Below, piece by piece: positions 1,959-22,441 of a stretch of 34,854 bases of DNA; within the stretch, counting starts at the first letter, position 1, and every line of letters begins with the position of its first letter. The stretch spans positions 1-34,854 of IMG/VR virus record IMGVR_UViG_3300046535_000743; one strand, written 5' to 3'. The notes under the pieces were generated by a model. That model worked only from the letters and a program-made list of their open reading frames with translations. It did not search any database and was not told where the DNA came from. This DNA is from a virus. Position numbers and translations under genes: made by a program.

Positions 1959-2224
1959 GATGCATCCACCCAACGCTTGCGGAACAGCGTGCGCCGCTGC
2001 TCGACCCATCGCGGACCGTGGATGAAACCGCCGCGGATGACCCATCGGCGGCCGCACGCCCGGCATTCGATGGCCGTGCCGAGGATGACGCTGCCCTCGC
2101 CGCTCGGCATGCGCGCCTCGCGGCCGCCGTCCTCGACGGGTAGGGGGTTGCCGCACTCGCACGCCGGGCCGGGCGCCGGCTCGGGCGGGCCGATGATCTC
2201 CCAAAGCCGTTCCTCATAGCTCAC
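1955..2224 (-). CDS. Small zinc-ribbon-like protein
   Basis: The protein is 89 aa. GTG (2224-2222) overlaps the nuclease stop as GTGA and has AGGGGAG seven bases upstream. Two cysteine pairs, CEC near residue 23 and CRAC near residue 55, are separated by about 30 residues and followed by GRRW, a pattern of a zinc ribbon. The C-terminus is basic (EQRRTLFRKRWVDAS), consistent with nucleic-acid contact. Translational coupling to the Cas4-like nuclease suggests the two are made together, but a functional link is inference. Confidence 0.75.
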   Translation of the reverse strand: MSYEERLWEIIGPPEPAPGPACECGNPLPVEDGGREARMPSGEGSVILGTAIECRACGRRWVIRGGFIHGPRWVEQRRTLFRKRWVDAS

Positions 2225-3678
2225 GGTGTCGCTCCCCTCTTGCCGGTGCCGGCCTTGGCGCCGGCCATGAATTCGCGCCCCTTGTCGCACGATTCGCGCC
2301 CGAGGGGCCGGTGTGGGTTGTAGTACGAGCAGAACCCGCAACCCTTGCCGGGGGCGGTCGGAACGTCCTGCCAAGGCTCGTCGGCCTCGTCGGCGCCACG
2401 TTCGAGCGCCCATTGCCGCAACGTTGACACGCGGTCGATGGCGGCCTCGGCGTTGGCGTAGTCCGGCTCGCGCTCGATGACGAGCAGGCCGTCGAGGAAG
2501 CCCGAGCGCGGCCAGAGTGCGAGGTTGATGGTGCGGACCTTGAACCCAGCACGCCGCCAGCCGAGGGCGTACGTGTCCAGCTGGACGCCGTACTTGGACG
2601 TCGGCACGAGTTGCTCTTTCTTGACCTCGCGGAACGTGTCGGTGCCGAGCACCTTGTGGTCGTAGATGTCGACCTCGCCGAGCTCGCCGCCCTCAACCAT
2701 CGTGGTTGAGAGGACGTCGGCGAGGTCGGTCGAGCCGCTCATGCCGTCAGTCATCCACACGCGGCGTTCGAGTAGGAAACGGTCCGAGGTGCGCGGCCCG
2801 GCGGCCTCGTTCGCGGCGCTGAACGCGTCGGCGAGCTTGGCGTGCACGGCCGTGCCCACGAACGACGCCCAAGGGTCGGGCCATGTGATAGCGGGGAACC
2901 CGAGGGCGCGGCGCATGACTCGGGCGTCGCACGGGTCGCCGATCTCGGACGGGCCGATCTCGACTTGGTTCGAGCGCGGGTCGGCCTGCGCGTACGCCTT
3001 AACGATGTCGATCATCGTTTGGCGTTTTGCGGCGAGCCGCGGGGGCACGGTGTTGCCGTCCCGGTCGACGATGACGGGCGCGGCGAACCGTACGGGCTCG
3101 AACACGACGGGCTCGATGCGGCCGGGCAGGTCGAGCGGCGAGCCGGCCCATGCCGGCGGCGCGGCGATGGCGGCGAGCTCGGCGCGCGCCGGCTCGGTGA
3201 GCGGCCCGTTGCCGACGACGTGCCCGGTTGCGAGCGCCGTCTCGGCGTCGTGGATGCGGGTGCGCATCTCGTCGGCGTCGGCCGGCTGGCCGTTGACGAG
3301 GTAGCGCTCGGGGTGGCCGGTGATGGTGTCCTCGGGATAGCCGGCGGCGGCCGCGAGCACCGGGTCGACGAACTCGCCCGGTACGTCGTACATGGCGGCG
3401 ACATCGGACGCCGCGAGCCGGGCGTGTTCGACGAGCTGCTCGTCGGTGGGCATGTCCTCGCGGGTGCCAGCGAGATAGTCGTACATCGGGTTACCGGGGC
3501 CGGGCGTGCCGGCCATGAGGCCGATAGTGGCGCGCGCGACGGCGGCCGTGTTCCATTCCTCATCGCGCTCGTCGACGAGGATGGGCGCGCGCCATGGCGA
3601 CGGCGCCGGCAGGCCGCCGGATGGGTCGGGTGTCGTCCAATCGTCATCGTCGACTTGGATGGGTGCTGCGTAACGCAT
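2221..3678 (-). CDS. Cas4/RecB-like PD-(D/E)XK exonuclease with Fe-S cysteines
   Basis: The protein is 485 aa, starting at ATG 3678 with GAGAGG six bases upstream. The nuclease domain occupies about residues 240-470: a first cysteine C250 (DPCDARVMRRAL), a G-x-x-x-H motif at 275-279 (GTAVH), an acidic motif around D318, the D-x-K pair D340/K342 in DIYDHK, and the Q-x-x-x-Y motif 366-370. C447, C450 and C464 complete the four-cysteine set typical of the 4Fe-4S Cas4/AddB group. The first 240 residues are acidic, Pro-rich and probably partly disordered. It likely acts on DNA ends in recombination or replication. No recombinase partner is visible in the window. Confidence 0.85.
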   Translation of the reverse strand: MRYAAPIQVDDDDWTTPDPSGGLPAPSPWRAPILVDERDEEWNTAAVARATIGLMAGTPGPGNPMYDYLAGTREDMPTDEQLVEHARLAASDVAAMYDVPGEFVDPVLAAAAGYPEDTITGHPERYLVNGQPADADEMRTRIHDAETALATGHVVGNGPLTEPARAELAAIAAPPAWAGSPLDLPGRIEPVVFEPVRFAAPVIVDRDGNTVPPRLAAKRQTMIDIVKAYAQADPRSNQVEIGPSEIGDPCDARVMRRALGFPAITWPDPWASFVGTAVHAKLADAFSAANEAAGPRTSDRFLLERRVWMTDGMSGSTDLADVLSTTMVEGGELGEVDIYDHKVLGTDTFREVKKEQLVPTSKYGVQLDTYALGWRRAGFKVRTINLALWPRSGFLDGLLVIEREPDYANAEAAIDRVSTLRQWALERGADEADEPWQDVPTAPGKGCGFCSYYNPHRPLGRESCDKGREFMAGAKAGTGKRGATP

Positions 3679-3734
3679 CGGGTGCCTCTCGGGTGAGGGT
3701 GGGCGGCCGGCGCGAACCGGCCGCCCGAGTATCG

Positions 3735-4040
3735 CTAAAGGGACTGACAGTGCGAGACGCCGGTCGCCGGTTCGACGAGGGTGAGCCGGGTGCGGCCGGG
3801 CAGGAAACAGCCGGCCTCGACCGGATGGAAGGTGAGCACGTGGTCGCCGAGCGAGCACGCGGGGCCGTAGTGCCCGTGACAGACGAGCAGGGAAACGGGC
3901 ACGCCGCCGTCAACCACGAGGACGTGCCAGCCGGCGAGCTCGGGGCACATGTTGACGGGAACGTCGGGCGTCGGCGTGCATTTGCACATGCCGTCGGTGG
4001 GGTCGGTCGCAACGCCGATCCAGTTGAGCCGCTCGCCCAC
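3735..4040 (-). CDS. Hypothetical protein
   Basis: The protein is 101 aa, with a GTG start at 4040 that shares one base with the upstream TAG stop and is preceded by GGAGGGGG five bases away. It contains several cysteines (MCKCTPTP near residue 18, then single ones later) and a mixed beta-rich sequence (WHVLVVDGGVPVSLLVC, TRLTLVEPATG). No family is recognised. It is followed by a 56-base gap before the nuclease gene, which has its own ribosome site. Confidence 0.72.
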   Translation of the reverse strand: MGERLNWIGVATDPTDGMCKCTPTPDVPVNMCPELAGWHVLVVDGGVPVSLLVCHGHYGPACSLGDHVLTFHPVEAGCFLPGRTRLTLVEPATGVSHCQSL

Positions 4041-11259: not shown

Positions 11260-12312
11260 CTAGGGGGCGGTGAGGGCGTCGTGTGCGGCCTGCTCGGCGG
11301 CCGCGAGCCGGGCACGCGTGTCGGCGAGCTCGGCGGCGAGCTGCGTGATGAGCGCCGACTCGGCGTCGCCGGTGTCCTTGATGGCCTTGAGGATGACGGC
11401 CGTGTCGATGTTCGAGCCGGCGCCGGACAACGCGGTGACGGCGGCGATGAGCGCCGCAAGTTGCTTGTCCTGTCCGGCCTGCGACGCGATGAGCGAACGC
11501 ACGTTGAGCTGCGTGTCGAGTAGCGCGGTGGCCGGCGTCTCGGTCGGGTTCGCGCTCGGCAGATTCTTGGTGTACCAAACGACCTTGGCGTCACCGGCGT
11601 CGAGTGTGGTCACGGGCATTCCTTTCATGAGGTCGGCAATGAGCTCGTCGACGGTTCCGCGGTAGGCGTTCGCGTCGCATGTGGTCTTGCCGGCGATGGT
11701 GGCCGTGCTGGCGTATTGCAGGATCAGGGGAACCTTGCCCGAGTACTCGGACCAGCCTACGAAATCGTCGCCGGGGTACATGTCCTTGAACGGCGCTTGC
11801 CGGCTCGACGGATAGTGCGCGTTCCACAGGTGGCCGGGCCAGCCGGTGAGTTGGTTGCCGTACTGTCCGCGGCTCGCGTACATGACGACGGGCCGGCCGG
11901 TGGCGGCGCGGAGTGCGTTGCCGAATGCGATGCCGACGGACGCCGGCACACTGTCGGTGTCCCATCGCTCAAGGTCAACCTGCCAGAACCATCCGGGGAA
12001 GGTGCGCCACCACGGCTCGGACTCGTCGGCGAGGGCGATGCAGTTGGCCACCTGCGCGGCGACGCTCGGCGAGGAACGCACCACGTAGTAGCCGCCGATG
12101 AGCGGCATGCCGGCGGCCTTGGCCGCGGCGAGGTTCGGCCCGTCGGCGAGGTCGTCGTACGAGCCGCCCTCGCCGACTTTGGCCGTGACGAACCGGATTC
12201 CCTCGGCGTACGCGCGGCGCATGACATCGGCGCCGAGCAATCCGTCGTAGTGGGAGGTGTCCCACCCGAACGTTTGCACGGCGCCGACGGTCTTACCTGA
12301 GAGTGCGGGCAT
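11260..12312 (-). CDS. Endolysin, GH25 muramidase
   Basis: The protein is 350 aa, ATG 12312. Residues about 13-232 are a glycoside hydrolase family 25 domain, which cuts the MurNAc-GlcNAc bond of peptidoglycan. D18 in FGWDTSHYDG and the D-x-E pair D113/E115 in WQVDLERWD are the family's active-site acids; IRFVTAKVGEG and GGYYVVR are typical core strands. The C-terminal 110 residues begin with DAKVVWYTKNLP and become an Ala-rich coiled coil (LAAELADTRARLAAAEQAA). No classical LysM, SH3 or peptidoglycan-binding repeat is seen. There is no signal peptide, so release needs a holin. Confidence 0.92.
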   Translation of the reverse strand: MPALSGKTVGAVQTFGWDTSHYDGLLGADVMRRAYAEGIRFVTAKVGEGGSYDDLADGPNLAAAKAAGMPLIGGYYVVRSSPSVAAQVANCIALADESEPWWRTFPGWFWQVDLERWDTDSVPASVGIAFGNALRAATGRPVVMYASRGQYGNQLTGWPGHLWNAHYPSSRQAPFKDMYPGDDFVGWSEYSGKVPLILQYASTATIAGKTTCDANAYRGTVDELIADLMKGMPVTTLDAGDAKVVWYTKNLPSANPTETPATALLDTQLNVRSLIASQAGQDKQLAALIAAVTALSGAGSNIDTAVILKAIKDTGDAESALITQLAAELADTRARLAAAEQAAHDALTAP

Positions 12313-12321
12313 GGGGCCAGC

Positions 12322-12537
12322 CTACGAGATCAGGGCGCCGGTGACGATGAGGGCGCCGATGACGGCGACGATGGCGCCGGGGTAGACGGCGCCGACGACG
12401 GCGAGGGCGGCGCCGAGCAGAACGACGACGGCGCCGATGGTGATGATGCCGGCGCGGCGGCCGGCCGCCCGGCGGGCCGTGTTCCGCGCGTACTGCCGGC
12501 GCTGCCACGTGGTGACGGTGGTCGATGGGTAAGCCAT
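12322..12537 (-). CDS. Small two-helix membrane protein, holin candidate
   Basis: The protein is 71 aa, starting at ATG 12537 with GAGAGGAAACGATC directly before it. A basic N-terminus (WQRRQYARNTARRAAGRRAG) precedes two hydrophobic helices (about residues 31-52 and 54-71) joined by a short YPGA turn. It is the first gene of the transcript and lies nine bases before the endolysin, the standard holin position. Small size, two helices and a charged end fit a class II-like holin, although the charge is at the N-terminus rather than the C-terminus. Confidence 0.8.
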   Translation of the reverse strand: MAYPSTTVTTWQRRQYARNTARRAAGRRAGIITIGAVVVLLGAALAVVGAVYPGAIVAVIGALIVTGALIS

Positions 12538-14893: not shown

Positions 14894-15859
14894 TTACAGG
14901 GTGAATGCGGTATAGGGCAGGTAGTGCGCCGAGCTGAACGCCGCGGACATCGGCGGCCATGCCGGGTCACCCGATGGTAGTGGCGTGTTCGGCGCGGTGG
15001 CCGCGAAATCGAACATGGCGAAGTAGCAGCAACTTCCGTGCGGGCCGGCGCCGTTCGTCCGGGCGTACTCGAACATGTTTTGCGTCCACGTGACGGCCGC
15101 GCCGGTGTGGTCGGTGACGGCCGCCCGGATGCCGATCTCGGCGATGCCCCATGCGAGCCCCTTGGCGTCGCACCAATCACGACACGGCTTGAGCTCGTGC
15201 TCGGGCGTCGTGAGCGTGTTGTGCAGCATGTAGAGGTCCCACCCGACGCACTTGACCTTGCCGGCCCAACTCGCTTGCCAAAAGTCGTCGGGGAAGCCTT
15301 TGGAGACGCCGCCGATGAGTGACCAGTTGGTGAAGATCAGTTGCGGGTATACGTGCGGGTTGCCGACGTCGGCGCAAATCGATAGGAACCGATCGGTGGC
15401 CGATTTCCACAAGGGGATATTCAGCCCCGACGTTGACCGATACTTGACGTCGGGCTCGTGCCAGATGCACGGAAACACCGGGTGCCCGGTCGGAATCGAC
15501 GTCAGCCACCCGGTGACGAGGGTGTCGTACGCACCCGACGCCATGAGGTCGAGGGACGGCTTGGCGCTGAACACTGACGCGAGGTGGCCGATGTCCGGGG
15601 CCGCCTTGTCCAAGTCGAACGCGGTGGCGAAGTTGCCCGAGTTGTACGTGCGCGACATTGACCACGGCCCGGCGGTGGCTCGGATCGCGTCGAATGCCGG
15701 CCGGCCGCGAGAGACGGACGCGCCGACGAGCATGCCGGTTCCGCCGGGTGGCGGTGGGGTGATGCCGCCCCCGCCACCTCCACCGGACGGCGGCGTCTCG
15801 GGCGTGCCGCCGTCGAGGGGCACGAGCAAGCCGTGTTCGGCGCCCCATGCTCGCGCCAT
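14894..15859 (-). CDS. Tail-associated glycoside hydrolase-like protein
   Basis: The protein is 321 aa, starting at ATG 15859. A short N-terminal piece (1-25) is joined by a Gly7 run and a Pro4 run (about 26-41) to a domain of about 280 residues that looks like a TIM barrel. E135 in PCIWHEPD and E241 in WGIAEIGI sit where clan GH-A enzymes, particularly GH26-like ones, carry the acid/base and nucleophile glutamates. Other supporting segments are YPQLIFTNWS, VGWDLYML and CYFAMFDF. It probably trims or binds a cell-surface glycan during adsorption. Family number and substrate are not certain. Confidence 0.72.
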   Translation of the reverse strand: MARAWGAEHGLLVPLDGGTPETPPSGGGGGGGITPPPPGGTGMLVGASVSRGRPAFDAIRATAGPWSMSRTYNSGNFATAFDLDKAAPDIGHLASVFSAKPSLDLMASGAYDTLVTGWLTSIPTGHPVFPCIWHEPDVKYRSTSGLNIPLWKSATDRFLSICADVGNPHVYPQLIFTNWSLIGGVSKGFPDDFWQASWAGKVKCVGWDLYMLHNTLTTPEHELKPCRDWCDAKGLAWGIAEIGIRAAVTDHTGAAVTWTQNMFEYARTNGAGPHGSCCYFAMFDFAATAPNTPLPSGDPAWPPMSAAFSSAHYLPYTAFTL

Positions 15860-16413: not shown

Positions 16414-17403
16414 CTACACCTGCCAGCTAGCGGACTCGAAAGTGAGGTTGGTGCCGTTCGGGATCGATACCGAGTAGTCCCGGATTTCGACCTTGCCGTC
16501 AGAGCGGACCGCGCCGCGGAGCATCGTGTTGCCGATGAACGCGTAGATGGGCACGCCGGCTCGGTATGTTGCGGCCGGCGGCTCGAATCCGGCCGGCACC
16601 TTGCCGACGAACGCGTTGGTGTTGGCGGCGAGGGTGCCGCCGGGCCGCGAGCCGTCGCCGCCGCGCTGCACCTCCAACACGAACGTCACGAGGCCGTTCT
16701 TGCGGCGCACCTGCGCGCCGTAGCCGGTGCTCGGGATGTTCCAGTCGGGGCAGCCGTTGGCGTTGCCGGTGACGACGGGAACGGGGCCGGTGTCGCCCGC
16801 CACGGTTTTCCATGCCACGCCGTCGCCGAGCAGCAAGTCGCCCGACTCGTACTCGGTGATGAGTCGGCCGGCGAGCGCGGCCGGCCGTACCGATGTCGTG
16901 GACGTGATGAGTCGGCCGTCGGTGCCGAGCCACACGCCGCGGCGCTTGACGGCCGAGTTGCTCATCGACACGGCGCCGGGTGCCACCTCGATCCACGCGA
17001 GGGGGTATTGCACCTTGCCCGTTCCGCCGGGCGCCTCGGTGAGCGGCGCCGGCCCGGTGGACGAGCCGGCCGTGCCGGTGACGATCTTGGCCCGTAGCAC
17101 GTTGTCGGCCGCGTGATCCATTTCGAGGCATGCGAGGTCAAGCCGCGCCTGCGATGACGGGTTCGCGGCCGCCGAAAGGATCTGGTCGGCGTCGGCTTCC
17201 CACCGGACGCCGCGGAACATGACGGGTGCCAGCGCGCGGAAGCGCACGCCGCGGCTCGCGTCGCCCGAGCAGTACACCGGGTACGGGTCGGCCGGCGTGC
17301 CGATGATGCCGTCGGGCACGTAGGCCATCCACAGTGCCTCGGTCTCGGCGTCGATGAGGACACCTGACGCTCGGCCGCCCGATGGGTAAGAGTCCTCAGC
17401 CAC
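16414..17403 (-). CDS. Minor tail protein
   Basis: The protein is 329 aa, starting at GTG 17403 with AGGAAGGA six bases upstream, overlapping the hub gene by eight bases. The N-terminal half contains FRGVRWEADADQILSAAANPSSQARLDLACLEMD (given here as a region, about 63-96), a pattern seen in actinophage minor tail or baseplate proteins that precede the fibre. The C-terminal half is beta-rich (YGAQVRRKNGLVTFVLEV, GTNLTFESASWQV), like a tip or collar domain. Function in the tail tip is inferred from order and composition. Confidence 0.8.
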   Translation of the reverse strand: MAEDSYPSGGRASGVLIDAETEALWMAYVPDGIIGTPADPYPVYCSGDASRGVRFRALAPVMFRGVRWEADADQILSAAANPSSQARLDLACLEMDHAADNVLRAKIVTGTAGSSTGPAPLTEAPGGTGKVQYPLAWIEVAPGAVSMSNSAVKRRGVWLGTDGRLITSTTSVRPAALAGRLITEYESGDLLLGDGVAWKTVAGDTGPVPVVTGNANGCPDWNIPSTGYGAQVRRKNGLVTFVLEVQRGGDGSRPGGTLAANTNAFVGKVPAGFEPPAATYRAGVPIYAFIGNTMLRGAVRSDGKVEIRDYSVSIPNGTNLTFESASWQV

Positions 17404-18571
17404 GCTCGATCCTTCCTAGGCGTCGTTCGAGGTCGCGCAGCTTGCGTAGCGTCCTCGTGTCGGTGATGGGGTCGCCGCCGATCTGTGGGCTAATCGTCTC
17501 ACCCGCATCCTGTCCGTCGGTACGTACCGCGATGTTGACTGCGGTGACCTGCGAGACGATGGCGCCGGCCCCGTCGATTTCGACAGTTACGAGGTCGCCG
17601 AGCCCGTAGTCGCGCCCGAAACGCTGGTCGGCGTTATCGATGGCCACCACGCTAATTGAACCCTGCTCGGCCGCTTGCGCGAGCGCGTCGAGGCCGGCGT
17701 TGGTGAGCTCGCCGACGTCGTTGGACTCGCTGGCAACGAACGACTCGATGCGCGGCCAGCCGGCGGCGAGCGCCGCGGTGTTCTCGACCTCGACGATTGT
17801 GCGACCGGTGCCGGTGCCGTCGCCGCCGACGATGGCCACGGTGAACGTCGGCGCTTGGTGACGGAACGAGTAGGCGCGCAGGTTGCCGATTGCTTTGGAG
17901 TAGCGGACGAGGCCGCTACGGTCGACGGGCGGCTCGACCTCGAACAGTAGGACGCCGGTTGAGCGGTCGATGCGGTAGACGAGGCCGCCCCCGACCGCGG
18001 CGACGGCGCGTAGGTCGTCGGTGAGTAGGCCGAACCGTGACGAGTAGGTGATCGTGGTGCCGGCCGCGGCCGAGCTGCCGAGGGCGAGGCCGGGCACCTG
18101 CCGCGCGGCGAGGGCGCCGGGGCCGGCGTTTTCGTTGACGAGCGTGCGCATGATCGTCTTGGCGTTGACGCCCGTGAACGTGCGCCGGGCGGTGACGGTT
18201 TGGTGCTCGGCGTCGTTGGCCGGCGTCATGTACGTCAGCCGGCCGGCGAGTGCGGCTCGGTCGTCACCGGCGTAGATGACCATCGTGCCGGGGTCGGCGT
18301 TCTGCCCGTCCGAGCTCCAATCTTGGTCGCCCTGGCGTTCGATGGGGCCGCCGGTGAGGTATTGCCAACCGGTGCCGTCGTCGCGCAGGATTTCGAGCCG
18401 GTTGCCGGGCTGCGCGAGGTCGGTCCAGCTTGGCGACGTCGGGACGGTGACGGCCATCGTGTCGACGGAGTTGAGCCGTAGCACGATGTCGAGCGCCGTC
18501 CACGAGTCGATGATGTCGCCGATGGGCACGAGGTCGGGGCCGGTGAAGTAGACGACGTAATCGGTGTTCAT
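17396..18571 (-). CDS. Gp37-like tail hub protein
   Basis: The protein is 391 aa, starting at ATG 18571, two bases after the upstream stop. It resembles the siphovirus ReqiPepy6 Gp37-like family: an N-terminal WTALDIVLRLNSVDTMAVTVP, GNRLEILRDD and GPIE strand pattern, a central SSRFGLLTDDLRAVAAVGGG helix, and the late GLGDLVTVEIDG followed by VTAVNIAV. These proteins are thought to form the hub beneath the Dit ring, equivalent to the N-terminal part of Tal. The C-terminus ends in a basic helix (RTLRKLRDLERRLGRIERG). Confidence 0.85.
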   Translation of the reverse strand: MNTDYVVYFTGPDLVPIGDIIDSWTALDIVLRLNSVDTMAVTVPTSPSWTDLAQPGNRLEILRDDGTGWQYLTGGPIERQGDQDWSSDGQNADPGTMVIYAGDDRAALAGRLTYMTPANDAEHQTVTARRTFTGVNAKTIMRTLVNENAGPGALAARQVPGLALGSSAAAGTTITYSSRFGLLTDDLRAVAAVGGGLVYRIDRSTGVLLFEVEPPVDRSGLVRYSKAIGNLRAYSFRHQAPTFTVAIVGGDGTGTGRTIVEVENTAALAAGWPRIESFVASESNDVGELTNAGLDALAQAAEQGSISVVAIDNADQRFGRDYGLGDLVTVEIDGAGAIVSQVTAVNIAVRTDGQDAGETISPQIGGDPITDTRTLRKLRDLERRLGRIERG

Positions 18572-18573
18572 CG

Positions 18574-19500
18574 TCAGGCCATCTTGTAGCGCTTGATGAA
18601 CTCAAGGGTGACCTTGGTATCGGCGCCCGAGCCGGACACGGCGAAATCGACGGCCGACGTTCCGCGCGGGATGCCCCACAGTGTCGAGCCGGGCAGCGTG
18701 AGCTTGTCGAGCAACGAAAGGTCGGCGTCGTCGAGAATGCGCGGCGGGTCGGAAAAGATCCTTACCGACTGGCCCGAGGTGAGGGTGTGCGTGATGGTGA
18801 ACGTGGCCGTGGTGCCGTCGGGTCGGGTGATGGTGGCCGTGATGCCGGTCATGGGGCCGTCGATCGTCCAATCGGCGTACGTGGTGAGCTGCCCGGTGTT
18901 GACGAGGGTCGAGTTGCCGAGGGTGCGCCCGGACGAGACGCGCGGGTACGGGGCGAAGAATGACGAGCCGGCCGAGCCTTCGCGGACGACGCGCACGGGC
19001 ACCGGGTCGTACCAGTAGCCGCGGGGACAGTACAGCTGGACGGGCACGAGATCGTGCGACCAGTCGTCGCCTTGGCCGTTGTCCCATCCGGCGTAATAGG
19101 TGCCGTCGATGCGGCGCTCGCTACCGTCCGGCCGGACGATGCGCAGCGTTCCGAGCCCCTCCTCGGTGGTGCGGGTGAAAGCGTCCTCGACGTCGCGCCA
19201 CGGGACTAGGAACGAGTCCTGATCGTGGCCGAATACGTGGATGGGCAGGGTGACGATGCGCGGCTCGTATCGGATCGAGTTGATGCCGACGCCGCCGCGC
19301 GAGCGGGCCGCGGTTGACAGGGTGATCGGTTGCGAGCCGAGGCCGGCGACGCCGGATGCGAGGAAGTAGCCCTGATCGGGATCGACGAGTGACCACTCGC
19401 GGCCGGTGGGGTCGAGCCATCCGGCGTAGGCGTACTCGAACGTGCGGCCGGGCGGCCGGGTGTCGACGGTTACGCCGCCTGCGCCTGCGCGTACGGGCAT
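18574..19500 (-). CDS. Distal tail (Dit)-like protein
   Basis: The protein is 308 aa. I placed the start at ATG 19500 because AGGAG lies eight bases upstream and one base separates it from the tape-measure stop. The N-terminal part (NSIRYEPRIVTLPIHVFG, FTRTTEEGLGTLRIVRPDG, YYAGWDNGQG) follows the siphovirus tail-component family. The C-terminal half (TYADWTIDGPMTGITATI, FAVSGSGADTKVTLEFIKRY) matches the usual second beta domain. Dit forms the hexameric ring that joins the tail tube to the tip; its position right after the tape measure agrees. Confidence 0.85.
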   Translation of the reverse strand: MPVRAGAGGVTVDTRPPGRTFEYAYAGWLDPTGREWSLVDPDQGYFLASGVAGLGSQPITLSTAARSRGGVGINSIRYEPRIVTLPIHVFGHDQDSFLVPWRDVEDAFTRTTEEGLGTLRIVRPDGSERRIDGTYYAGWDNGQGDDWSHDLVPVQLYCPRGYWYDPVPVRVVREGSAGSSFFAPYPRVSSGRTLGNSTLVNTGQLTTYADWTIDGPMTGITATITRPDGTTATFTITHTLTSGQSVRIFSDPPRILDDADLSLLDKLTLPGSTLWGIPRGTSAVDFAVSGSGADTKVTLEFIKRYKMA

Positions 19501-19501
19501 G

Positions 19502-22441
19502 TCAGTTGCTCCTATCCGCACGCTGTAGGGCGTCGTGGCGGGCCGAGATCGCGGCGAGCTCGGTGACGCCGATTGTGGTGCCGGCGGCGTTGATCGTCCA
19601 GCTATTCGAGACGGCCCTCACGGCGTCCATAGCGAGCGCGGAAGTGCCGGCGCGGTCGAGTCCTAGCATCGCCGCCGTTGGCGGCCGTAGCGCACGCACG
19701 AGGGCGGCGTGTGCGCGTGGCGCGTGCTGCTCGACGCCGACGGCGTAGCCCTCGACGGTGAACACGCCCATTTCGGCGTAGAGCTTGCTCGGCGAGCCGA
19801 TGTGCAGGAAATTCTTGGCCGCCTTCCATCCGTCCTTGACGGCGCCAACGATGGCGTCGACGACCTTGCTGGCGCTCTCTTTGATGCCGTTGACGAGGCC
19901 GTCGATGATGTTGGTGCCGAGTTGCTTGACGTCGCCGATGAACCCATTGACAAACGTCGTTATCTTGCCGGGCAGTGACGAAAATGCGTCGACGACCTTG
20001 CCGGGCAAGCCCTTGGCGATGGCGACGGCGTTCGAGACGCCGGTCGTGAACTTGATCTTGAGGTACGACCACGCGGCCGCCACCTTGGCGCCGATGAGCG
20101 AGCCGAGCGCCGAGATAGCGGCGACGATCTTGCCGGGGAGCGACTTGGCGAGCGCCTCGGCGTTCGAGACGCCGGTCGTGAACTTGGCCTTGACGTTCGT
20201 CCACAGGTTCGTGATGCCGGTGATGAACCGCGCGACGAGGTTCGCGACAACGGCTATGGCCTTGTCGCGTAGCCCGGTGAGCAGGCCGACGACCTGGCCA
20301 GGGAGCGCCTTGGCCTCGGATACGACGGCGTTGACGCCCTTTTTGAACAGCGATACGCCGAGGTCCCACAGCTTGACGATCAGTTGCGCGGCCTTGACCG
20401 GTAGCCCGATGAGCAGGCCAAGGATGAGGCCGATGGCGAACCCGAGGGCGTGCAACATGCCCTCACCGGCGTTCTTGAGGACGCTGATGAGCAGGCCGGG
20501 GAGTGCCTTGAGGGCGGCGAGGGCGCGGCCGGGCAGCGACGTCAAGAAATCGAGAATGCTTGATCCGAGCTTGGCGAAGAATCCGCCGATGGCCTTGCCG
20601 ATGCCGACGAAGAAACCGCCGATGCGGCCGGGGAGCTTGGTGAAGAAATCGCCGATGCTCTTGCCGATGTCGGTGAAGAATCCGCCGACGGCCTTAACCG
20701 CCGTGCCGAGCCCGTTAAGGATGGCCTTGCCGACATCACCCCACTTGATGCCGTTGATGAACTTGGTGAAGTTTTCGAGCGGTCCGACGAGCTTGAGGAG
20801 TGGCGTGAGCAGGAAAGTTAGACCCTTGGCGATGAGCTCGATAAGCGGGACGATCGCCTTGGACGCGAGGAACGACACGAGCGCCGCGGTGAGCTTGATG
20901 AGCGGCGTTTGGATGGCCACGAACAGCCCGAGCAGCTGTGCGGCGATGGTGATGAGCGGCGTGAGCGCCGTCACGATGTCGACGATGGGCGGTAGCAGCG
21001 ACACAATCGCCGGGATCATCGGGAGGAACGCGTTGACGACTTGTACGACGAGCGGCGCGAGCGCTTGCAGGAGGGGCATGAAAGCGGCCGCGAGCGCCTT
21101 GATGATGTCGGCGAGCGGCGGCGCTAGCTGCGTAAATAGGTCCGAGATGAGGCCGAGGACGGGCGCGAGGACGTCGGCGAGAATCTGGCCGAGTTGGGTG
21201 ATGACGGGCAATAGCGGCTCGACGAGCTGCGCGACGGCCGAGACGAGCGAGCGCAGCACCGGGCCGAACGCGACGATGACCGGCGACAGACCTTGGACGA
21301 GCGCCACGACGAGCGCCGAGATGACGGGCAGGATGGGCGCGAGCGCGCCGGCTATGGTGCCCAGCGCCGAGCCGAGGGGAGCGATGGCCGGCCCGAGGGC
21401 GGCGAGCGCCGGGCCGAGCGCGTTGAGTAGCGGCGTCAAGATCGGCGTGATGCCGGAAACGATCTGACCGATGAGGGGCAGGACGGACGCGAGGACGCCG
21501 CCGATGGCCGGCGCGAGCACGCTCACGGCCTGCCCGATGAGCGGCGTTACGGTGGTGAGGGCATCCTTGATCTGCGGAATTACGCCTTGGAACGCGCCGG
21601 ACAACGCCTGTCCGATGGTGTCCTTGAACGTCGAAAACACGCCAAGCAGGGTGAGCGATTGCTTTTCCATGGCGCCGGCCGCGCCGGGGAACTGCTGCAT
21701 GCCCTTGAGCAGCTGATTTACGCCGTCGCTCGCGTTGATGGTGCCGGCGCTGATCTCATCCATCACCTTCGCTTGCGTCTCGCCGCGAACGGCGGCGAGG
21801 GCAGCGACGCCCGAGAATCCGGGGAGCGCGTTGCTGAGCTGGTTGATGTTGTCGAGGGTGAGCTTACCACGGCTTGTGATCTGCGACAAGGCGAGCGACA
21901 CACTGTCGAGGTTTTGGGCGCCGCCACCGGTGACCGAGACGACGTTGCCGATGGTCGTGAGGAACGGCACTAGTTGCTGCTGAGTCTGGCCGATGCTCTT
22001 GGCCATGGCATCGAACCGGCCGGCCGTCGTGGTGAGGTCGGTGAACTCGAACGGGGTGGCCGCGGCGAACGACTGTAGCTCTTTGAGCTGCGCCGTGCCC
22101 TTGGCTACCGAGCCGGTGAGCGAGTTGAACGAGATTTGCGTTTGTTCGAGGCTGGCCGCGGTCTTGAGGCCGAACGTGGTGAGGCCGGCCAGCCCGACGC
22201 CGATGCCGATGGTGGCCGCGGCGAGGCCGGTCTTGAGGATGCCGCCGAGGCCGCTGAGCGCGGAACGGGCGCCACCCTTGAACCGGGCGCCGAACGACTT
22301 GCCGGCTCGGTCGCCCTCGCCCTCGACGGCCGGGCCGATGGAACGCCGAAGCTCGCCAGCAATCTCGCTTTGTAGCTTGCTGGCGAACCCCTTGGCGCTC
22401 GGGATGATCGTGACGTACGCGGTACCGACCTCGATGGCCAC
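19502..22441 (-). CDS. Tail tape measure protein
   Basis: The protein is 979 aa, starting at GTG 22441 with GGGAGG eight bases upstream. Residues about 85-280 form the conserved tape-measure domain (LEQTQISFNSLTGS, AATPFEFTDLTTTAGRFDAM, TLDNINQLSNALPGFSG). The centre, about 280-560, is a long hydrophobic Ala/Leu/Ile/Pro stretch, and several helical repeat units follow. The C-terminus has FLHIGSPSK at about 878-886, a motif common in tape measures. At roughly 1.5 angstroms per residue the length predicts a tail near 147 nm. Two copies of FTTGVSNA.A.AK.LPGK come from an exact 28-base DNA repeat 132 bases apart. Confidence 0.95.
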   Translation of the reverse strand: MAIEVGTAYVTIIPSAKGFASKLQSEIAGELRRSIGPAVEGEGDRAGKSFGARFKGGARSALSGLGGILKTGLAAATIGIGVGLAGLTTFGLKTAASLEQTQISFNSLTGSVAKGTAQLKELQSFAAATPFEFTDLTTTAGRFDAMAKSIGQTQQQLVPFLTTIGNVVSVTGGGAQNLDSVSLALSQITSRGKLTLDNINQLSNALPGFSGVAALAAVRGETQAKVMDEISAGTINASDGVNQLLKGMQQFPGAAGAMEKQSLTLLGVFSTFKDTIGQALSGAFQGVIPQIKDALTTVTPLIGQAVSVLAPAIGGVLASVLPLIGQIVSGITPILTPLLNALGPALAALGPAIAPLGSALGTIAGALAPILPVISALVVALVQGLSPVIVAFGPVLRSLVSAVAQLVEPLLPVITQLGQILADVLAPVLGLISDLFTQLAPPLADIIKALAAAFMPLLQALAPLVVQVVNAFLPMIPAIVSLLPPIVDIVTALTPLITIAAQLLGLFVAIQTPLIKLTAALVSFLASKAIVPLIELIAKGLTFLLTPLLKLVGPLENFTKFINGIKWGDVGKAILNGLGTAVKAVGGFFTDIGKSIGDFFTKLPGRIGGFFVGIGKAIGGFFAKLGSSILDFLTSLPGRALAALKALPGLLISVLKNAGEGMLHALGFAIGLILGLLIGLPVKAAQLIVKLWDLGVSLFKKGVNAVVSEAKALPGQVVGLLTGLRDKAIAVVANLVARFITGITNLWTNVKAKFTTGVSNAEALAKSLPGKIVAAISALGSLIGAKVAAAWSYLKIKFTTGVSNAVAIAKGLPGKVVDAFSSLPGKITTFVNGFIGDVKQLGTNIIDGLVNGIKESASKVVDAIVGAVKDGWKAAKNFLHIGSPSKLYAEMGVFTVEGYAVGVEQHAPRAHAALVRALRPPTAAMLGLDRAGTSALAMDAVRAVSNSWTINAAGTTIGVTELAAISARHDALQRADRSN

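Follow-up and report, generated by a model that had tools for sequence, protein, structure and literature searches.

A predicted GH26-like glycoside hydrolase in the tail-tip gene order of a likely actinobacterial phage

Gene content of the locus

The window analyzed here is the complete IMG/VR virus record IMGVR_UViG_3300046535_000743 (34,854 bases), and among known phages there is no near DNA match to its first 25 kb. On the minus strand, PHROG matches outline a head part with terminase, portal, head protease and major head protein, as well as a tail part with major tail protein, tail assembly chaperone, tape measure, Dit and a gp37-like minor tail protein. The gp37-like gene is followed by a cassette with a GH26-like gene (Table 1) and, downstream of it, by a gene for a GH25-like endolysin. 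Because the nearest relatives of the gp37-like protein come from Streptomyces and Microbacterium phages, the host of this phage is likely to be actinobacterial. Elsewhere in the window, a 545-aa ORF (2221-3858) has an exonuclease match (phrog_1674, 2.2e-42) that is confined to residues 278-516 in the C-terminal half and leaves the ~270 N-terminal residues unassigned.

The GH26-like ORF had been noted in a preliminary description of this DNA, which left its strand unstated. The plus strand is interrupted by stops across the interval, and the ORF lies on the minus strand. Compared with its orthologue in L002/L003 (~80% identical), changes at the three codon positions number 55/37/113, and dN/dS is ~0.26 (dN 0.16, dS 0.63); GC3 of the ORF is 0.86. 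Since dN/dS is low and third codon positions change most, the sequence comparison indicates that the ORF is a genuine gene and evolves under purifying selection. The two glutamates as well as the Gly7 and Pro4 runs that had been pointed out occur at exactly the given positions of the 321-aa translation: the runs occupy residues 26-32 and 35-38, while E135 lies in a WHEPD and E241 in an IAEIG context.

Three parts can be distinguished in the protein. The N-terminal anchor is conserved (P14 does not vary among ten full-length members of the clade described below), and a full-length AlphaFold2 model contains a weak beta-hairpin at residues 5-14 (pLDDT about 62-71). In the same model, residues 26-39 of the following linker are predicted to be disordered; the linkers of relatives are also Gly/Pro-rich, but their sequence itself is not conserved. 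The third part is the barrel core. A frameshift that would fuse the enzyme to the adaptor was also weighed; a stop codon and two bases separate the two ORFs.

Table 1. Features of the tail-tip region, in window coordinates
Feature	Position	Strand	Basis
Distal tail protein Dit	18574..19521	-	phrog_33 8.8e-13
gp37-like minor tail protein	17396..18571	-	phrog_538 4.1e-54; Pfam Sipho_Gp37 1.6e-38
Tail-tip gene, member of conserved order	16414..17403	-	phrog_17342 8.4e-45; synteny
Adaptor, 182 aa	15862..16410	-	phrog_27064 8.6e-17; homologous N-termini in relatives
GH26-like tail-tip protein, 321 aa	14894..15859	-	ORF, purifying selection, family, synteny
N-terminal anchor, residues 1-18 (MARAWGAEHGLLVPLDGG)	15806..15859	-	Conserved; weak beta-hairpin in model
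Gly/Pro-rich linker, residues 19-42	15734..15805	-	Gly7 and Pro4 runs
(beta/alpha)8 barrel core, residues 43-321 (279 aa)	14897..15733	-	AlphaFold2; Foldseek
E135 codon, predicted acid/base, after strand 4	15455..15457	-	Alignment with CtLic26A E109; conservation
E241 codon, predicted nucleophile, on strand 7	15137..15139	-	Alignment with CtLic26A E222; conservation
Conserved partner gene, 361 aa	13799..14884	-	Follows GH26-like gene; alignment A11

Family membership and conserved residues

Single-sequence searches with the GH26-like protein matched no Pfam, PHROGs or NCBIfam model and returned nothing useful from the PDB, phages or plasmids; a match to a Klebsiella mannonate dehydratase (E 0.1) was attributed to chance. 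An initial scan of genomes using two aligned sequences gave no matches. The family search was routed via the neighboring gene, that is, through 47 viral loci containing a gp37-like relative, in which a two-sequence profile detected homologs in L011, L054 and L041. Searching with alignment A4 added L057, L059, L060, L063, L064 and three Actinomadura genomes, and two additional viral scans yielded L121, L122 and L124. A profile of nine phage and prophage sequences (A6) found matches in 8 out of 397 genomes of the phylum. Within the taxonomic family of one Actinomadura strain, represented by 201 genomes, 125 contain at least a weak match to A6, and six genomes contain full-length matches with E < 1e-50, at seven places in total.

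A quick tree, drawn midpoint-rooted and with SH-aLRT as its only support measure, places the window protein in a clade of 20 rows from phages, prophages and Actinomadura (support 84; 95 for the inner 18 rows). Cellular actinobacterial GH26-like proteins (e.g. L077, L078 and L083) share a homologous barrel, the His-Glu pair and the strand-7 glutamate with this clade, but several of them are larger and have carbohydrate-binding or other extra domains, and the larger ones branch apart from it. Some score below the cut-off of the Pfam GH26 model PF02156, yet have kept the HE motif and the strand-7 glutamate: large proteins with a CBM96 domain from Actinomadura genomes (L083, 592-2229), and one with CW_binding_2 repeats from another actinobacterial genome (L073). 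The viral contig L057 contains a second, far more divergent GH26-like ORF (11514-12419, 302 aa; A6 profile E about 1e-8), situated ~4.7 kb downstream of the first.

H134, E135 and E241 are each present in 56 of 57 homologs, and D208 and Y210 in 53 of 57. The core contains five glutamates (135, 220, 222, 241, 264), only two of which, 135 and 241, are invariant in the ten full-length clade members; given this and their retention among the 57 homologs, the conservation of the pair stands above chance. K139 is likewise invariant in these ten members but variable elsewhere, which makes H-E-x-D-x-K a signature of the clade. A strand-8 Trp present in most clade members is replaced by Met in the window.

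Predicted fold and relationship to GH26

It had been proposed that the protein forms a TIM barrel, a claim that structure prediction could contradict. For the core, with 28 sequences, AlphaFold2 predicted a (beta/alpha)8 barrel (pLDDT 95.7, pTM 0.93) with strands at core positions 2-7, 26-31, 52-57, 86-90, 131-135, 162-169, 194-203 and 237-242. E135 (core position 93) is located directly past strand 4 of the model and E241 (core position 199) inside strand 7, in keeping with the earlier suggestion of clan GH-A glutamates. In order to check whether the cellular sequences had forced the fold, a full-length control was modeled with ten sequences of the phage/prophage clade only. This model (pLDDT 86.2) reproduces all eight strands and also shows the disordered linker and the weak N-terminal hairpin. 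Because barrel and top structural match (see below) are the same in the control, the predicted fold is independent of the distant cellular proteins.

The nearest solved relative is the lichenase CtLic26A (endoglucanase H; PDB 2bv9, 2vi0, 2cip). It ranks first in Foldseek for the core model (E 9e-10) and again for the control (7e-10), and the top 15 matches of the core model are all GH26 structures or CtLic26A-containing complexes, followed by GH5 from about 1e-5. The GH26-like character anticipated in the preliminary description thus agrees with the closest solved structures. Among phage proteins in BFVD, some annotated as GH5 (e.g. A0A6J5RDT7) are likewise predicted barrel glycosidases; however, their structural match to the window protein (E 2e-6 or worse) is weaker than that of solved GH26. 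CtLic26A and the predicted window structure have in common the (beta/alpha)8 barrel, an HE after strand 4, the strand-7 glutamate and a D-x-Y on strand 6, but identity in the Foldseek alignment amounts to only ~12%.

At the sequence level, the link to GH26 runs through intermediates, because a profile of eleven viral and prophage sequences gives no more than marginal matches to GH26 structures (best E 0.003). With the A6 profile as query, the cellular protein L077 is recovered (E 7e-14, whole protein), which in turn matches PF02156 at 1e-9 and CtLic26A at 3.5e-33. A weaker match of A6 (1e-6) is L078, a canonical GH26 protein with an HEMNG motif (PF02156 5e-15). When all 28 sequences are combined in one profile (A7), CtLic26A is reached at 7e-48, a value partly driven by the cellular members included, and GH26 mannanases and xylanases rank below it. 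The A7 alignment equates the HE of the family with H108-E109 of CtLic26A, and the strand-7 glutamate with E222; we take E109 and E222 to be the catalytic residues of CtLic26A. At the PF02156 cut-off the window protein has no match and L057 reaches only E 0.099, while more distant cellular relatives pass. Since it falls below this Pfam threshold, we do not file the window protein as a GH26 member; on the strength of profiles and models, it is GH26-like within clan GH-A.

The HE motif is a named feature of GH26, and a retaining mechanism with two glutamates is described for GH26 and clan GH-A (PMC6556568). In the mannanase BoMan26B, the acid/base is surrounded by R197 (-3), G204 (+3), W206 (+5) and F207 (+6) (PMC6556568). 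The window protein has C131, V138, Y140 and R141 at these offsets, and hence none of the Arg, Gly, Trp and Phe used to recognize mannanase branches A/B; instead, it combines H-E-x-D-x-K with an N-terminal tail anchor. What it does share with the mannanase is the strand-6 D-x-Y, D261 and Y263 in BoMan26B and D208 and Y210 in the window. As the sugar-site residues of GH26 mannanases are largely absent, specificity is not readable from the sequence, and the mannan-, galactan- and teichoic-type targets proposed earlier are not rankable.

The absence of several canonical residues of the GH26 substrate site would also suit a barrel that derives from a glycoside hydrolase and recognizes a host glycan without cutting it, and receptor binding would fit a position at the tail tip. 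Loss of catalysis, however, is usually followed by drift of the catalytic residues, whereas here both glutamates, the His before E135 and the strand-6 D-x-Y have been retained despite the deep divergence of the family. We therefore consider a binding-only barrel unlikely.

Tail-tip position and proposed role

The earlier placement of the gene among minor tail genes is confirmed by its tape measure, Dit and gp37-like neighbors and by comparison with other loci. The order Dit, gp37-like, adaptor, GH26-like and partner is found in eleven distinct loci (the window, L002, L011, L041, L054, L057, L059, L060, L063, L121 and L122). In L072 and L095, adaptor and partner flank the GH26-like gene. In thirteen loci, the window among them, the GH26-like gene is followed by the partner; in L060 the gap between the two would accommodate one further gene. 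The partner may be a carbohydrate-binding or an assembly protein. No cassette neighbors were found in L067, L064 and L124, and in L071 and L091-L094 the flanking sequence is not long enough for a context call. L067 (7803-8783), from Actinomadura madurae, is a close relative with both glutamates and without recognizable cassette neighbors within 8 kb; it may be the remnant of a prophage or have been domesticated.

With a probability of roughly 0.75, we interpret the window protein as a retaining beta-glycoside hydrolase of clan GH-A, nearest to GH26, that is carried at the siphophage tail tip and cuts a glycan of the host surface. According to this model, the short N-terminal anchor would attach the protein to the tail-tip adaptor or to the neighbors of the adaptor, and the Gly/Pro linker would allow the barrel to swing. 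The barrel probably cuts host surface polysaccharide during attachment; it would do so by a retaining mechanism based on two glutamates, E135 being the acid/base and E241 the nucleophile.

Alternatively, the window protein could be a tail-associated lysin that acts on peptidoglycan rather than on a secondary polysaccharide, given that tailed phages commonly carry lysins with glycosidase domains in their virions (PMC6116005). This appears very unlikely: the nearest solved relatives target beta-glucans, mannans or xylans, the window protein matches no peptidoglycan-hydrolase family, and a separate GH25-like endolysin gene is present downstream. Viral GH26 mannanases from mangrove soil have been described as auxiliary metabolic genes (PMC6460857), and the wide distribution of GH26-like enzymes in the host family, with weak or better matches in 125 of 201 genomes, would be compatible with a secreted polysaccharide degrader that aids host feeding and is not part of the virion. 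Yet the gene has a fixed position within the tail-tip gene order, its N-terminus as read lacks a secretion signal, and the conserved anchor is common to the tail-tip relatives; we regard such an auxiliary role as the least probable of the alternatives. A tail-tip glycoside hydrolase that acts on the host surface remains our preferred reading.

Further indications come from the organization of related phages. Most other phages with a gp37-like relative encode open frames of ~420-790 residues whose N-terminal part matches the first ~115 residues of the adaptor. Eighteen of these fused adaptor proteins were scanned for domains: six are beta-helix/pectate-lyase-like (four with a K1-lyase C-terminal domain), three contain GDSL and one GDPD, while no recognized domain was found in eight. 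Given the fusion of enzymes to the adaptor domain in these relatives, the GH26-like gene occupies an enzyme slot. The tailspike-like fusions share this genomic slot and the adaptor N-terminal domain with the window, but in them the enzyme is joined to the adaptor, whereas in the window a separate gene of unrelated fold follows a short adaptor and is itself followed by the partner gene. A glycerophosphodiesterase in the baseplate of phage Ld17, which appears in the reference list of PMC6116005, is a precedent for an enzyme in such a slot.

More tentatively, the phage-borne clade might represent a subfamily or CAZy family of its own, specialized on a secondary wall polysaccharide of actinobacteria that no known glycosidase attacks, and swapped as an adaptor-enzyme-partner cassette against the fused tailspike domains. 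In any case, a previously unannotated family of phage ORFs becomes a testable enzyme candidate with named catalytic residues, and phages of actinobacteria emerge with a modular tail-tip slot where a single adaptor domain is paired with surface-degrading enzymes of very different kinds. Should it prove active, the window enzyme could serve as a probe for actinobacterial wall polysaccharides and as a clue to the host structures recognized by these phages. Examples of the fused arrangement are L012 (12169-13923), L045 (12069-13682) and L023 (12062-13906), where the adaptor N-domain is joined to GDPD, GDSL or beta-helix/K1-lyase-like domains.
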